Source of the DNA: Pseudomonadota bacterium
GTDB lineage: Bacteria; Pseudomonadota; Gammaproteobacteria; Burkholderiales; Burkholderiaceae_C
Length of the DNA: 39,549 nt
Direction: 5' to 3'
Assembly (NCBI GenBank): GCA_018241895.1
Contig: JAFECX010000005.1
Coordinates: forward strand, 1-39,549
Part shown: positions 3,231-35,850 of the stretch, one piece after another
How the letters are laid out: each line of letters begins with the position of its first letter
Numbering within the stretch: position 1 is the first letter of the stretch
Made by a program: the position numbers and the translations under genes
Notes under the pieces: model-generated
The model's database searches: none
What the model was told of the DNA's origin: nothing
What the model saw: only the letters and a program-made list of their open reading frames with translations

Positions 3231-4631
3231 TCAGCGGCCCGCCGCCTGCAGCAGCGTGTCGAAGAGGCTCTGCGCCACCTGCAGCATCTTGGCCGCCGCC
3301 TGGTAGCTCTGCTGGTACTGGATCAGGCGCGCGGCCTCCTCGTCGAGGTTGACCCCCGCGACCGCCGCCCTCGCCTGCTCGGCCTGGGCCGCGGCCGCGG
3401 CCGAGATCCCGGAACTCGTCCGGGCCGACTGGACACGCACGCCGATCGTCGTCATCGCTTCGGCATAGGCATCCGATGGCGTGCGGCCGTCGACGATCGC
3501 GCTGTCGCGCAGCGCGAGCAGCGCGATGGCATTGCCGTTGCTCGACGCCGGGGCCGGCGGCTGCGATGCCGCCGCGATGTCGCCGGGGCCGAAGCCCGCT
3601 GCCAGCGTGATGTGGCTGGCGTTCAAGGGCACCGGCTGCGCTGCGATGACGAACATCACCTGACCCGCCGTGCCGCCAGGCGTCAGGCCCATGGCCTGCT
3701 GCTGGTTGACGGCGCTGCACACCTTCTCCGCGAAGTCGTTGAGCAACCTGCGCGCCGTCATCAGATCGTCGTCCTGGAACTGCAGCAGCCCGGCGATGTC
3801 GCCGCCGCCCAGCGTGTCCGGACTCAGCAGACGCGGCGTCGGGCCGTCGGCGATCGCGAGCGCCGAGCGCGAGGGATCGCCGGGACAGGCCTGGATCGAC
3901 AGCTTGTTGGCCGTCGCGCCGAGCACCAGGTTCTGGCCGCCGGCGATGAACAGGCTGACGCTGCCGTCGTCGGCGTCGGCGCGCGTGAGCTGCAGGTGCT
4001 GCGCCAGACGCTGGATCAGCTGGTCGCGCTGATCGAGCAGGTCGTTGGGTGGATGACCGAGCGCGCCCGCGGCGATGATGCGCTGGTTGAGGCTGGCGAC
4101 GTTCTGGGCCATCGCGTTCACCTCGTCGACCGCGACTTTCAGGCCGGCGGTGACGCCGGCTTGCAGCGTGTCGAAACCGGCACCCATGCGCTGGAACTGC
4201 GACACCAGGTCGCCGGCGCGCGCCAGCACGACCTGACGCGTCGACGCATCCGCCGGCTGCGTCGTCAGGTCGGACAGCGCGTTGAAGAACTGCGTGCTCG
4301 CGTGGCCCAGGCCCTGCTCGCCGGTCGGGAACTGGGTCTCGAGCTGCGTGAGCTGCGCCAGGCGCGCCGCGTCCATCGCCGCCACCGAGCCGGCGCCCGT
4401 CGCCTCGCGCGTGAGGAACGCGTCGTGCGCGCGCTCGACGCTCACGACGTCGACGCCGCGGCCGAAGTAGCCCGAGCCGCTGAACTGCGGCAGCGACGGT
4501 GCGAGCACGACGCTTTGCCGCGAGTAGCCGGCGACGCTGGCGTTGGCGATGTTCTGGCCCGTGGTCTGCAGCCCGGCATAGCTCGCCGCCAGCGCCTTGA
4601 CGCCGATCGACGTGAGTGCGGTGTTCGCCAT
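3231..4631 (-). CDS. flgK: Flagellar hook-associated protein FlgK (HAP1)
   Basis: FlgK is the first junction ring on the distal hook. The start was chosen at MANTALTSIGVKALAASYAG. The rod/hook-type signature follows (GLQTTGQNIANASVAGYSRQ), and the C-terminus has the paired helix (LIQYQQSYQAAAKMLQVAQS). At 466 residues it is shorter than the 547-residue E. coli protein and much shorter than many betaproteobacterial FlgK proteins. The missing part is in the variable outward-facing middle, while both assembly ends are intact. Unlike its neighbours it is separated from flgJ, by 202 bases, most of which is a dispersed repeat. It may therefore be transcribed partly on its own or be subject to polarity from that repeat. 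The longer frame reaching into flgJ is a shadow. Confidence 0.95.
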   Translation of the reverse strand: MANTALTSIGVKALAASYAGLQTTGQNIANASVAGYSRQSVVLAPSLPQFSGSGYFGRGVDVVSVERAHDAFLTREATGAGSVAAMDAARLAQLTQLETQFPTGEQGLGHASTQFFNALSDLTTQPADASTRQVVLARAGDLVSQFQRMGAGFDTLQAGVTAGLKVAVDEVNAMAQNVASLNQRIIAAGALGHPPNDLLDQRDQLIQRLAQHLQLTRADADDGSVSLFIAGGQNLVLGATANKLSIQACPGDPSRSALAIADGPTPRLLSPDTLGGGDIAGLLQFQDDDLMTARRLLNDFAEKVCSAVNQQQAMGLTPGGTAGQVMFVIAAQPVPLNASHITLAAGFGPGDIAAASQPPAPASSNGNAIALLALRDSAIVDGRTPSDAYAEAMTTIGVRVQSARTSSGISAAAAAQAEQARAAVAGVNLDEEAARLIQYQQSYQAAAKMLQVAQSLFDTLLQAAGR

Positions 4632-4671
4632 GGTGCCGCGGTGCCGAGATCGTGCGCGCAGGCGGGGCCGG

Positions 4672-4836
4672 CTCAGAAGCTGTGAATGAGCCGGTCGCGC
4701 CCGAGCGGCGCGCCAGCACGATCCCGCTCGAGGCGCAAAGCGCAGCCATGTCGCGCGATAGGGCGAGCATTTGCAACGCCGAGCCGGAGCCTCAGGGCGC
4801 GTCGAGCGGGCGTGAGGGGTTCGTTCACAGGTCTCA
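4672..4836 (-). repeat. Dispersed repeat, copy 1, ending on the flgJ stop codon
   Basis: This is one of two near-full copies; the other is at 34909-35076. Read on the minus strand it begins TGAGACCTGTGAACGAACC and ends TTCACAGCTTCTGAG, so the ends are imperfect inverted repeats of each other. The interior shares long blocks with copy 2, for example CTCGGCGTTGCAAA and GGCTGCGCTTTGCGCCT, and an inner hairpin CGCGCC-CGAGC-GGCGCG (4696-4712). The first TGA is the stop codon of flgJ. The size and terminal inverted repeats resemble a MITE or a large REP/BIME-type element. No transposase is present, and target-site duplications were not evident to me. Confidence 0.8.
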
Positions 4837-5817
4837 GGCCTGCAGCGTGCGCTGCAGCCGCAGCGTGGTGTTGATGACGCGGCTGAGCTTGTCGGCGTAG
4901 GCCGGGTCGGTGGCGTAGCCGGCGCGCTGCAGGCCGCGCGCGAAACTGGCCGCCGCATCACCTGCCGGACCCGCCGCCGCACCGCCTGCCGGACCCGCCG
5001 CCGCACCGCCTGCCGGACCCGCCGCCGCACCGCCTGCCGCACCGCCTGCCGCGCCGCCTGCCGCACCACCCGCCCGGGTGGCAGCGTCCAGCACCTGCCG
5101 GTAGCGCGGGCTGGACTTCATCAGCCGCGCGTAGTCGGCGAACGATTCGGCATAGCTCGAATAGGCGCGAAAGCGCGCCGTCACCTTCTGCGCCTTGCCC
5201 TCGACGTATTCGGTGGTCGTGATCTCGGCGGTCGGCCCGCGCCAGCCGGCGCCGGCCTTGATGCCGAACAGGTTGTACGACGGGGCGCCGTCGGCATGGC
5301 GGATCTCCTTGCGCCCCCATCCGGTCTCGAGCGCCGCCTGCGAGACCATGAAGGCCGCCGGGATGCCGGTGGCGGCCTCGGCCTGGCGCGCCGCCGCGTC
5401 GTGCTGCTGCACGAACGCCGCCGCGCCGCCTTGCGGCAGACGCGTCGGGCGGCCCGCCAGCGGTGCCGGCGAGTCGTTCGCCGAGCCCGTGGCGGGGATC
5501 GGCCCGGGCGCCAGCCCCATCTGGCGCTCGAGCTGGCGCGCGATCGCCTCCGACAGGCCGCCCGGCATGCCGGCGAGCTGGTTCGCGAACTGGGTGTCGA
5601 GCATCCCGGTGGCGAGTTGCGACTGCGCATCGTCCTGCGACTGCATCGTCGTCGCGCGCATGCTCTTGACGAGTTCGTTCATGAACAGCGCCTCGAACTG
5701 CCTGGCGGCCTCGCGCACCGCGCTCCGGGGATCGCCCGCGGCGCGCGCGCGCAGGCCGGCGAGCGACTGCGTGTCGGCGGCCAGACGCGTGGCGCCAGCG
5801 GAGTCGTGCACGGCCAT
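4834..5817 (-). CDS. flgJ: Rod cap and peptidoglycan hydrolase FlgJ
   Basis: The 327-residue protein has the two expected parts. The N-terminal rod-cap domain (about residues 10-100) includes AARQFEALFMNELVKSMRAT. The C-terminal muramidase domain (about 130-325) has the predicted catalytic glutamate E164 in AALETGWGRKEI. It digs a hole in murein for the rod and caps the growing rod. The oddity is an insertion of about 38 residues made only of Gly, Ala and Pro (250-287). It is encoded by a minisatellite at about 4957-5070 (12- and 24-base units) and lies between QVLDAATR and ASFARGLQRAGYATDP, which are adjacent in ordinary FlgJ. Its stop codon lies in the end of a dispersed repeat. It follows flgI by three bases. 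Confidence 0.95.
   Translation of the reverse strand: MAVHDSAGATRLAADTQSLAGLRARAAGDPRSAVREAARQFEALFMNELVKSMRATTMQSQDDAQSQLATGMLDTQFANQLAGMPGGLSEAIARQLERQMGLAPGPIPATGSANDSPAPLAGRPTRLPQGGAAAFVQQHDAAARQAEAATGIPAAFMVSQAALETGWGRKEIRHADGAPSYNLFGIKAGAGWRGPTAEITTTEYVEGKAQKVTARFRAYSSYAESFADYARLMKSSPRYRQVLDAATRAGGAAGGAAGGAAGGAAAGPAGGAAAGPAGGAAAGPAGDAAASFARGLQRAGYATDPAYADKLSRVINTTLRLQRTLQA
4957..5070. repeat. In-frame minisatellite within flgJ
   Basis: On the plus strand a 24-base unit (CCGCCGCACCGCCTGCCGGA plus CCCG) is repeated three times and then degenerates into 12-base units (GCCGCACCGCCT). All units are multiples of three, so copy-number change keeps the flgJ reading frame. The encoded product is a flexible GGAA/AGPA linker inside the muramidase domain. 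Confidence 0.9.
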
Positions 5818-32240: not shown

Positions 32241-33392
32241 ATGTCGGACCTCAGCATCTCTCTGGACGCGCGCAGCCGCGCCCAGCTTCCGGTTCACAGC
32301 TACTTCGACGAGGTCCTGTTCCGCCGCGAACTCGAACTGATCTTCCATGCCTGGCCGCGCTACGTCGGGCACGAACTGCTGGTGCCCGAGGTCGGCGACT
32401 ACCATGTGCTCGAGCAGGAGGGCAAGGGGCGCGCGCTCGTGCGCACCGAGGCGGGCGTCGGGCTCGTCTCCAATGTCTGCCGCCACCGCCAGGCGCTGAT
32501 CCTCGAGGGGCGCGGCCGCAGCAGCGGCAACATCGTCTGCCCGGTGCATCGCTGGACCTACGCGCTCGACGGCAAGCTCGTCGGCGCGCCGCACTTCGAC
32601 GCGGATCCCTGCCTGAACCTGCGCAACTACGCGTTGCAGCGCTGGAACGGGCTGCTGTTCGAGCACGGCAGCCGCGAGTTGCCCAGCGATCTGGCCGGCA
32701 TGCGCGCGGCGGCCGCGCTCGACTTCTCGGGCTACGCCTTCGACCGCGCCATCGTCCACGAGTGCGAGTACAACTGGAAGACCTTCATCGAGGTGTACCT
32801 GGAGGACTATCACGTCGGTCCGTTCCACCCCGGGCTGGGGCACTTCGTGACCTGCGACGACCTCGACTGGCAGTTCGGGCGCCACTGGTCGGTGCAGACG
32901 GTGGGCGTGCGCGAGCGGCTCGCCAAGGCAGGCTCGCCGGTCTACGAGCGCTGGCATCGGGCACTGCGCCAGTACCACGGCGACGAGCCGCCGCGCCACG
33001 GCGCGATCTGGCTCACCTACTACCCGACGACCATGGTCGAGTGGTACCCGCACGTGCTCGTCGTCTCGACGCTGTTTCCGCGCGGCCCGCAGAAGACGCT
33101 CAACCTGGTCGAGTTCTTCTACCCCGAGGAGATCGTGGCCTTCGAGCGCGAGTTCGTCGAGGCGCAGCAGGCGGCGTACATGGAGACCTGCCTCGAGGAC
33201 GACGAGATCGCGCAGCGCATGGACGGCGGGCGTCGCGCGCTGATGGAGCGCGGCGACAACGAGGTCGGCCCCTACCAGAGCCCGATGGAAGACGGCATGC
33301 TGCACTTCCACGAGTGGTACCGGCGCGCGATGGGCCTGGCCGCCGAAGGCGCCATCGACCGAGAACCTGTGAATGAACCGGTGCCGCGATGA
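32241..33392 (+). CDS. Rieske-type ring-hydroxylating oxygenase alpha subunit
   Basis: The 383-residue protein has a Rieske [2Fe-2S] domain (C80-x-H82 in NVCRHRQALI and C100-x2-H103 in IVCPVHRWTYALDG). A catalytic SRPBCC domain follows, with the mononuclear-iron motif EVYLEDYHVGPFH (H191, H196). This is the pattern of aromatic-ring and choline/carnitine-type oxygenase alpha subunits; the substrate cannot be told. No reductase or ferredoxin gene is adjacent, so electrons must come from elsewhere. It is divergent from the xseB-ispA-dxs operon. The last ten residues (REPVNEPVPR) are encoded by the end of a dispersed repeat: the CGA at 33360 stands where two other copies of the repeat have the TGA stop. 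Confidence 0.88.
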   Translation: MSDLSISLDARSRAQLPVHSYFDEVLFRRELELIFHAWPRYVGHELLVPEVGDYHVLEQEGKGRALVRTEAGVGLVSNVCRHRQALILEGRGRSSGNIVCPVHRWTYALDGKLVGAPHFDADPCLNLRNYALQRWNGLLFEHGSRELPSDLAGMRAAAALDFSGYAFDRAIVHECEYNWKTFIEVYLEDYHVGPFHPGLGHFVTCDDLDWQFGRHWSVQTVGVRERLAKAGSPVYERWHRALRQYHGDEPPRHGAIWLTYYPTTMVEWYPHVLVVSTLFPRGPQKTLNLVEFFYPEEIVAFEREFVEAQQAAYMETCLEDDEIAQRMDGGRRALMERGDNEVGPYQSPMEDGMLHFHEWYRRAMGLAAEGAIDREPVNEPVPR

Positions 33393-34908: not shown

Positions 34909-35076
34909 CTCAGAACCTGTGAACGAATCGCTCGCGCCCGAGCGGCGCGACAGGACGGCCCTGATCAAGGCGCAAAGCGCAGCCCCATCGCGCGACAGGG
35001 CGAGCCTTTGCAACGCCGAGCGGGGGCGTCAGGGCGCGCGTCGAGCGGGCATGAGTGGTTCGTTCACAGGTTCTCA
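34909..35076 (-). repeat. Dispersed repeat, copy 2, ending on the ZIP transporter stop codon
   Basis: On the minus strand it begins TGAGAACCTGTGAACGAACC and ends GATTCGTTCACAGGTTCTGAG less its first base. The outer 15-17 bases are therefore near-perfect inverted repeats. The interior matches copy 1 along its whole length with scattered changes, and the inner CGCGCC-CGAGC-GGCGCG hairpin is conserved. The leading TGA is the stop codon of the transporter gene, exactly as in flgJ. Confidence 0.85.
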
Positions 35077-35850
35077 GTGCACGTGCAGCAGTGCCCGGGC
35101 GCCGGCGACGAGCGCGAGGCCGCCCGCCAGCCAGCCGAGCTGGATCGCCGTCTCGCGCCACGACAGGCGCTGCTGGAGCTGCGGCAGCAGGTCGGCCACG
35201 GCGACGTAGATGAAGCTGCTCGACGCGACGACGAGCAGGTACGGCAGCGTCGCCTGCCACGGTCCGACGAGGAAGTAGCCGGCGATGCCGCCGGCCACCG
35301 CGGCGACACCCGAGAGCATGTTGAACGCCAGCGCACGCCGGCGCGTGAAGCCCGCGTTGAGCAGCACGATGTAGTCGCCCGCCTCCTGCGGGATCTCGTG
35401 CGCCGCGACGGCGAATGCGGTCACGACGCCCAGTGCCGGGTCGGCCAGGAAGGCGGCGGCAATGAGCACGCCGTCGCAGAAGTTGTGCACCCCGTCGCCG
35501 ACCAGCACCGCGAGGCCGCCGCGGCCGGCCTGCGCGGCGTCGAAGTGGCTTGCATGCGCGTGCCCGTCGCCCTCATGGTGGTGCATGTGGCGATAGAGGT
35601 CGGCCTTTTCGAGCAGCCAGAAGAACAGCAGCCCGCCCAGCAGCGTGGCGAACAGCGGCTGTGCACCGGCACCGCTGTCGAACGCCTCGGGCAGCGCGTG
35701 CAGCAGCGAGGTGCCGAGCAGCACGCCCGCCGACAGGCTGACCAGGCTCCTGACGACGCGCCCGAGCACGGCCAGCGTCAGCGTGGCCGCCAGCAGCACC
35801 GACGCCATGCCGCCGATCGCGGTGGCCAGCACGATATAGACGAGGATCAT
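35074..35850 (-). CDS. ZIP-family divalent metal transporter
   Basis: The 258-residue membrane protein has about eight hydrophobic segments and the two ZIP metal-binding helices: GDGVHNFCDGVLIAAAF and AAHEIPQEAGDYIVLL. A His-rich cytoplasmic loop lies before them (HMHHHEGDGHAHASHF, about residues 88-103), as in zinc and other divalent-metal ZIP carriers. It should import metal into the cytoplasm; which metal cannot be told. The stop codon is the first TGA of a dispersed repeat. The start MILVYIVLATAIGGMASVLL is the only sensible one. Confidence 0.93.
   Translation of the reverse strand: MILVYIVLATAIGGMASVLLAATLTLAVLGRVVRSLVSLSAGVLLGTSLLHALPEAFDSGAGAQPLFATLLGGLLFFWLLEKADLYRHMHHHEGDGHAHASHFDAAQAGRGGLAVLVGDGVHNFCDGVLIAAAFLADPALGVVTAFAVAAHEIPQEAGDYIVLLNAGFTRRRALAFNMLSGVAAVAGGIAGYFLVGPWQATLPYLLVVASSSFIYVAVADLLPQLQQRLSWRETAIQLGWLAGGLALVAGARALLHVH

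Follow-up and report, generated by a model that had tools for sequence, protein, structure and literature searches.

Mobile elements that avoid damaging their host are best known for targeting tRNA genes, terminators or one fixed gene. GTAG REPs, BIMEs and REPINs are dispersed palindromic repeats of 20–40 bp that lie near gene 3′ ends (PMC3733652, PMC2817692), and in the accessible part of one account the termini of GTAG REPs are reported often to provide the TAG stop codon of flanking ORFs (PMC3733652). For E. coli, the accessible text of the RepRanger study places 446 of 4,072 REPs (∼11%) within 15 nt of a stop codon, and an earlier study cited there links stop-proximal REPs with lower translation and ribosome stalling (PMC12306157). 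ERIC, YPAL and Correia/NEMIS elements are short (<∼200 bp), non-autonomous repeats, some copies of which are transcribed with neighbouring genes; they mostly have TA termini, are A+T-rich or make variable duplications, and the part of the source available to us describes no fusion to stop codons (PMC2229807).

We analysed a 39,549-nt stretch of Burkholderiales DNA (contig JAFECX010000005.1, hereafter the window) that carries two copies of a non-coding near-palindrome of ∼160 bp, the left end of which mostly lies on a stop codon. The most likely reading is a miniature transposon mobilised in trans, perhaps by a transposase of the IS5 type, with CTGAG as its predicted target; we give this reading a probability of about 0.55. 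Like the GTAG REPs, BIMEs and REPINs of the accessible accounts, it is a dispersed palindromic repeat near gene 3′ ends, and as in stop-proximal E. coli REPs a hairpin stands right behind the stop. However, it is ∼160 bp rather than 20–40 bp long, and most of its copies, compared with ∼11% of E. coli REPs near stops, are flush with the codon. Unlike GTAG REPs as far as they are described in that part of the literature, its edge is TGA (TAG in sister families), there is no GTAG tag and a tip of ∼47 nt is shared, and unlike REPs moved by RAYT enzymes it has no Y1 transposase found linked to it. It is similar to ERIC, YPAL and Correia/NEMIS repeats in being short and non-autonomous, and to IS5-family elements and their MITEs in the short direct repeat at its edges and in the arm of one sister family, which approximates a terminal repeat (the arm in Xenophilus does so partly). 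The CTAG and CTGAG targets are also IS5-like by the target rules given below. In contrast to the IS5 family, the element has no coding gene, is palindromic over its full length, is over-represented at stops and has an almost fixed orientation; unlike IS5-family MITEs, no autonomous partner was found and its own arm is a weak match. As in MITEs, it is short, non-coding and multi-copy with terminal inverted repeats, and the orthologous sites at flgJ and a ZIP transporter gene are empty. In the open literature, which formed the scope of the search (subscription papers lay outside it), neither the element strings nor insertion at stop codons had a match beyond the REP precedents. The general phenomenon is therefore one with REP precedent, while the family, its TGA target, length, tip and spread were not found in the literature searched.

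Two copies in the window and their family in the genome

A preliminary description of this DNA had noted a 165-base MITE-like repeat with inverted ends, the terminal TGA of which is the flgJ stop codon, and a second copy further along. Both copies lie where they were described, on the minus strand at 4672–4836 and 34909–35076, and are identical in 143 of 168 aligned columns (85%; E 1e-49). The inverted ends are real, since copy 1 aligns with its own reverse complement at 70% identity across 154 columns. The length given needed correction: the right-hand TGAG contains a second TGA in direct orientation, and the unit proper is 158 bp. In the own-genome family the usual unit ends are GAACC...GGTTC. 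The features are as follows.

4834..4836, minus strand: left TGA of copy 1, the flgJ stop codon and target trinucleotide (from the sequence; FlgJ C-terminus and stop kept in 20 element-free relatives)
4676..4833, minus strand: element copy 1, 158-bp unit GACCTG...AGCTTC (borders drawn by analogy with identical Xenophilus copies)
4731..4777, minus strand: inner (apical) core GTTGCAAATGCTCGC...GCTGCGCTTTGCGCCT, common to Burkholderiales elements
4673..4675, minus strand: right TGA of copy 1, direct repeat of the target trinucleotide (from the sequence, and TGA on both sides of the Xenophilus copies read)
4834..5817, minus strand: flgJ, upstream gene (ORF; Pfam PF01832, Glucosaminidase, and PF10135, Rod-binding; NCBIfam TIGR02541 above cut-off)
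3231..4631, minus strand: flgK, downstream co-directional gene (gene caller; Pfam FlgK_D1)
34913..35073, minus strand: element copy 2, 161-bp unit (85% identity to copy 1)
35074..35076, minus strand: left TGA of copy 2, the ZIP gene stop (from the sequence; homologous TGA stop in 18 relatives)
35074..35850, minus strand: ZIP transporter gene (Pfam PF02535)
34910..34912, minus strand: right TGA of copy 2 (alignment of both copies)
33361..33382, plus strand: single-arm remnant (CGA GAACCTGTGAATGAACCGG), forming codons at the 3′ end of gene 32241–33392

Thus, the outermost TGA is the stop of flgJ in copy 1 and of the ZIP gene in copy 2. Copy 1 is set between flgJ and the co-directional flgK; copy 2 has the ZIP gene on one side and, on the other, a universal-stress gene in convergent orientation. 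The element had been said to break the flg operon and, as a matter of spacing, it does: flgJ and flgK are 202 nt apart, most of this being element, compared with an flgK start visible in the 87 nt inspected in 19 of 20 relatives (by eye). Two further observations were made in the window. FlgJ carries a low-complexity GGAAGPA-type repeat ahead of its C-terminus (4958–5060), and at 33361–33392 the CGA-preceded arm is read as the final codons of a gene for a Rieske-type oxygenase (…REPVNEPVPR, then the stop), which overlaps the start of the next gene; this arm is apparently a decayed copy turned coding sequence.

A genome-wide search with the 165-base sequence (3.98 Mb in 249 contigs) returned at least 40 near-full-length copies among the best 40 of 301 candidates. 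The core pattern was present at 63 places with up to two mismatches, and at 112 places with up to three, compared with 23 for a reversed control pattern. In the window and 70 fetched stretches we counted at least 58 full copies (20 more stretches around single ends were added after this count), so the family is not restricted to two copies. Genes were predicted with a codon-usage caller trained on the fetched stretches; all gene calls in this work follow codon-usage or GC-frame rules of our own, and the counts based on them are approximate. We scored copies that had a stop-side end and at least 200 nt upstream, which omitted five and three, respectively, of the 77 hits. Among the 69 remaining, 60 start exactly at a predicted gene stop, compared with one third expected from insertion in random phase (p 4e-20). 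All 60 stops are TGA, which ends ∼87% of the other predicted genes. The junction first seen at flgJ and ZIP therefore recurs in most of the family, and the copies are not scattered at random relative to genes. Two of the nine misses have CGA at the edge, one (C248) follows a YacG gene that the caller had overlooked (by eye), and the rest lie in non-coding DNA or next to no clear gene; five of the nine still show a TGA within 12 nt. At one CGA edge (C156:7166, L021), the upstream frame enters the element and continues to a TAG ∼82 nt in, which from the sequence would lengthen the upstream protein.

The gene–element junction in other genomes

The same junction was observed beyond the source genome. 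In a second species of the genus (G011), with copies ∼81% like our own, 23 of 31 copies start exactly at a stop. The edge stops of two of these copies are TAA and TAG (L277, L293) with TGA or TCA on the right side, so the right TGA need not copy the left one. Other relatives of the genus gave 11 exact junctions in 17 copies, with 7 of 24 hits left out for want of a stop-side end, and three of the six misses (L089, L092, L093) have a TGA 11–12 nt off the fixed anchor. This search of relatives took the best 13 candidates per genome and matched at least 17 of 61 genomes, each of them from the own genus. Nineteen of the 24 copies in Xenophilus sp. Marseille-Q4582 are at stops. The Xenophilus-type element occurs in 6 of 72,556 plasmid records and had no match in phage sequences; on a Variovorax plasmid, a CDS annotated by NCBI ends with TGA directly before the element.

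A pattern made from the shared tip matched at least 113 stretches in the GTDB collection, and among the 80 matches listed all titles but three were Burkholderiales (the three read Proteobacteria, Pseudomonadota and Pseudomonadales). Likeness of the tip within this order-wide set is true by construction, since the tip pattern was used to collect it. Sixty distinct loci had enough flank, of which 19 showed no coding-like stop within 160 nt. In 31 of the other 41 the stop lies at −58 to −62 from the tip, at the foot of the stem (25 TGA, 4 TAG and 2 TAA), and in 10 it lies elsewhere. None of 12 loci with further arm types (L124, L128, L129, L137, L144, L148, L151, L156, L164, L167, L171, L175) had a stop at the upstream stem foot.

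A sister family with arms TCCACTGAATC or TGGACTGTAACGG was found at stops that read TAG: an open-frame test placed the element there in L391, L392 and L184 and, for L193, at each of its two ends, and in L237 the NCBI annotation shows the same. As exceptions, the annotated stop of L239 is 6 nt further out and the frame of L390 is ambiguous; the stop rule does not hold for L195, L240, L242 and a second copy in L203. In L193, the element lies between convergent genes, both of which end with TAG at its feet. The tip, or part of it, was also seen in palindromes with quite different arms (L081, L082, L095, L084–L086, L096, L128, L143, L163, L167, L171 and L185), some of which end near CCTAGG.

Origin of the stop codon, target site and orientation

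Such a junction could arise if the element inserts at stop codons or if its end supplies them, and the preliminary description had allowed both. A TGA end that supplies stops and truncates genes would make the junction alike in most copies, as observed. However, copies inserted in random phase would place their TGA in frame in one third of cases, far below the observed share, and the stops at both loci compared are present in relatives without the element. The FlgJ C-terminus is kept with the same end point in 20 element-free relatives (19 TGA, 1 TAA), and the ZIP protein has the same ending, with no element, in 18 of the 18 relatives read, all with TGA. In G008, the closest relative at both loci (77%), the empty sites are TGAGCC and TGAGCG, equal to the right flanks of our copies. 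Some other upstream proteins also run to the end of their family models. Of 16 compared with NCBIfam, AcuI reaches 324/325 of its model (above cut-off) and, below cut-off, FdhD reaches 273/274, a thiolase-fold protein 399/399 and an E2 acyltransferase 406/408; six had no match at E 1e-20. Judged from these sequences, the stop codon was there first at flgJ and ZIP, for which an element-supplied stop is rejected, and as a general account it is scarcely credible. Insertion at stop codons, the other option of the preliminary description, and its label 'MITE-like' both fared well: copies are many and predominantly at stops, sites are empty in relatives, and recent identical copies exist elsewhere.

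These recent copies are from Xenophilus, where seven are identical and ten have at most three differences, indicating that the element moved recently; 7 of the 10 youngest are already at stops. TGA is present on both sides in all 24 Xenophilus copies read (from 26 loci, two of which had no readable end pair) and in 44 of 58 own copies. The element end in Xenophilus is GAAGGTGTGAA. The adjoining bases are also mostly constant: of these 44 own copies, 39 have a C ahead of the left TGA and 39 a G behind the right one, and in Xenophilus the corresponding counts are 23 and 20 of 23. The target is therefore better written as CTGAG than as any stop codon. In agreement, several copies away from stops keep TGA at their edge, and some young Xenophilus copies stand at a TGA with no predicted gene ending there (L361, L365 and probably L366); L361 and L365 follow a gene in the sense direction. 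Of the two flanking TGAs, the right one could be the element's own, as TGA stands beside a TAA stop in L277, and no empty site of near-identical sequence was found for comparison. At L130, two copies lie head to tail with TTCTGAGAAG in common, as if one had inserted at the right TGA of the other.

We compared the copies at stops with the share of CTGAG at stops among stop and non-coding sites. This share is 68% in the own genome, 33% in G011 and 46% in Xenophilus, with the CTGAG/TGAG background taken from DNA around copies, where unmasked weak remnants at stops raise the expected share. Counted in looser windows, 49 of 57 own (p 0.002), 24 of 31 G011 (p 6e-7) and 21 of 25 Xenophilus copies (p 1e-4) are at stops. 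None of 113 copies lies inside a spanning predicted gene, though 66% of sampled CTGAG sites are coding, and 16 of 19 non-stop copies are behind a co-directional gene (p 0.004). The motif, together with loss of harmful insertions, accounts for much of the stop bias, though perhaps not for all of it. With respect to TGA, the tip nearly always points the same way: TCA flanked both ends in none of 45 own, 20 genus, 23 G011 and 20 Xenophilus loci and in 2 of 59 order loci, in a count for which the end finder misplaced some ends (the left TGA was read in just 24 of 45 own copies).

The excess over the DNA-motif expectation, the nearly fixed orientation and the presence of different families at TGA and at TAG would each follow if insertion were coupled to the stop itself, with single-stranded sense DNA or RNA near terminating ribosomes setting position and orientation. 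We consider this quite improbable. Copies next to a TGA where no predicted gene stops (L361, L365, L383; C98, C100) speak against it, as do the bases outside the codon, which are mostly fixed (C before, G after) as for a DNA motif, and we know of no enzyme that couples insertion to stop codons.

Hairpin, mobiliser and wider meaning

RNA folding predicts strong hairpins of −77 kcal/mol for copy 1 (z −2.9) and −94 kcal/mol for copy 2 (z −6.1). Across the order, 95.1% of cells in 51 sequences are paired, compared with a mean of 80.5% and a maximum of 81.8% in 200 shuffles, and two-sided changes number 271 against a shuffle mean of 62.6 and maximum of 80; these shuffles ignore relatedness. In contrast, among 57 copies in the own genome only 1 of 28 pairs has a two-sided change, and pairing decays uncompensated. 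We read the pairing constraint as acting on the moving unit and not on resident copies; RNA selection on single copies is without support within the own genome. Many copies have lost the palindrome through internal deletion, and of the single or shortened ends read, 13 of 20 (own genome) and 9 of 13 (G011) still stand after a TGA. Five G011 loci (L347, L348, L349, L353, L356) are REP-like mini-hairpins of ∼35 bp with a nearly identical internal deletion, which may represent a route from long palindromes to REP-size repeats. No intrinsic terminator (stem plus T run) was found at 4550–4950 of the window. Rfam gave no match in the window, with three hits far below gathering score at 4600–4900 (E ≤ 10). 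Integron attC sites have RYYYAAC and GTTRRRY core boxes at their ends, which the ends of the element do not fit (by eye).

The strength of the hairpins, their covariation across the order, the surplus of stops over the motif expectation and the position of most non-stop copies behind co-directional genes are features expected of a selected mRNA 3′-end module, kept behind stops to protect or limit the upstream message or to insulate the next gene. This explanation appears doubtful, given the uncompensated decay within one genome, the internal deletions in many copies, relatives that have the same stop but no copy, and the youngest Xenophilus copies, most of which are at stops already. For a miniature transposon, by comparison, neutral drift of resident copies and arms that vary between families with pairing kept are supporting evidence.

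Which enzyme would move the element was approached from its ends and from known transposase families. A REP- or REPIN-type element moved by a RAYT, a Y1 enzyme acting on single strands, would have CTGA as cleavage tetranucleotide on each side; the hairpin form, the CTGA at both edges and the nearly fixed orientation fit Y1 logic, as does the stop provided by GTAG REPs in the accessible account (PMC3733652). However, the own genome has a single match to PF01797, which has no element near it and lies beside a TnpB-like frame (by eye), and G011, the copies of which are up to 98% alike, has none, though 20 of 38 genus genomes have a match. No element was found at 24 PF01797 loci. A Y1 profile built from 15 PF01797 proteins had no match in 278 mostly element-bearing loci (1.2 Mb), whereas two planted controls, both members of the training set, were recovered. 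The GTAG tag is absent at the stem foot, where the ends read in own and Xenophilus copies carry TGA. A tyrosine (RAYT) transposase is thus an unlikely mobiliser.

IS5-family transposases insert at YTAR or TNA, and both CTAG and CTGAG agree with these rules. The arm of one sister family (L151, AGGGAAGCTCTGAACAAGTCC) has one mismatch in 22 nt (E 0.4) with a terminal repeat from an Achromobacter plasmid; the element to which this repeat belongs is annotated as IS5-family, and both of its ends were read and are flanked by CTAG. A second match of the L151 arm, over 17 nt (E 5, one end read), is on a Xanthomonas plasmid, where the matching end adjoins a gene of the IS5 family. The Xenophilus arm agrees with the end of E. 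coli K-12 IS5 (IS5A) at 11–12 of 15 positions, a level reached by 0 to 0.4% of shuffles, while the own arm agrees at 9–10 and the G011 arm at 8–9 of 15 (12 uncorrected comparisons), so for the arms of our own family the IS5 link, which is drawn from sequence likeness, is weak. No stop junction was seen in the order set for the sister family whose arm is clearly IS5-like (L137, L148, L151). A tblastn search of plasmids with IS5 transposase matched at least 5000 records, with enterobacterial ones among the matches listed. We searched for an autonomous partner through matches to the ends, at 113 places in the own genome (100 of them listed) and 83 in G011, and none was found. We read 20 unpaired or shortened ends from the own genome and 13 from G011; none was seen next to a longer element, and they look like remnants or shortened copies. 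Ten proteins encoded between neighbouring copies at five order loci are ordinary genes, with no transposase among them.

A miniature transposon moved in trans accommodates most of these results: the copy number, the share at stops in every set counted and at an annotated plasmid CDS, the empty sites in relatives, the identical Xenophilus copies with their CTGAG edges, the near-identity of an IS5-family terminal repeat to one sister-family arm, and an inner tip common across the order. A transposase of the IS5 kind would insert the unit and duplicate the 3-bp TGA. Insertions within genes would be lost, and the survivors would be those that fall on a TGA stop or outside coding DNA, where they leave the protein unchanged. 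Resident copies then seem to undergo neutral drift, with internal deletions that remove the palindrome and leave end remnants at the stop. Between tandem genes such as flgJ and flgK, the mRNA would carry a hairpin right behind the stop, which in this model could slow termination or alter the downstream message. Several results fit less well. No autonomous partner adjoined the ends read, a transposase acting on symmetric ends would be expected to give insertions in both orientations, the families share the tip instead of the ends (opposite to the typical MITE), and some copies are at TAA or TAG. The stops also exceed the CTGAG share, so motif plus purifying selection may not suffice. A broader and more tentative proposal is an order-wide superfamily of mobile hairpins, with different arms and one tip, inserted in sense flush with TGA (CTGAG) or TAG (CTAG) stops. 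We hold both this and the miniature-transposon reading with less confidence because the IS5-arm family lacks a stop junction and other arm types lie off stops.

The address of this element is the end of a reading frame, a site that exists in every gene, and sister families use TGA or TAG. The identical young copies in Xenophilus offer a clean way to separate target choice from selection, and the shared tip under changing arms is a puzzle. In GC-rich Burkholderiales, many genes would have a large hairpin directly behind the stop, a point relevant to operon design, 3′-end annotation and ribosome stalling. If the order-wide superfamily is real, many gene 3′ ends would be safe harbours for mobile hairpins and gain a ready-made hairpin behind the stop.
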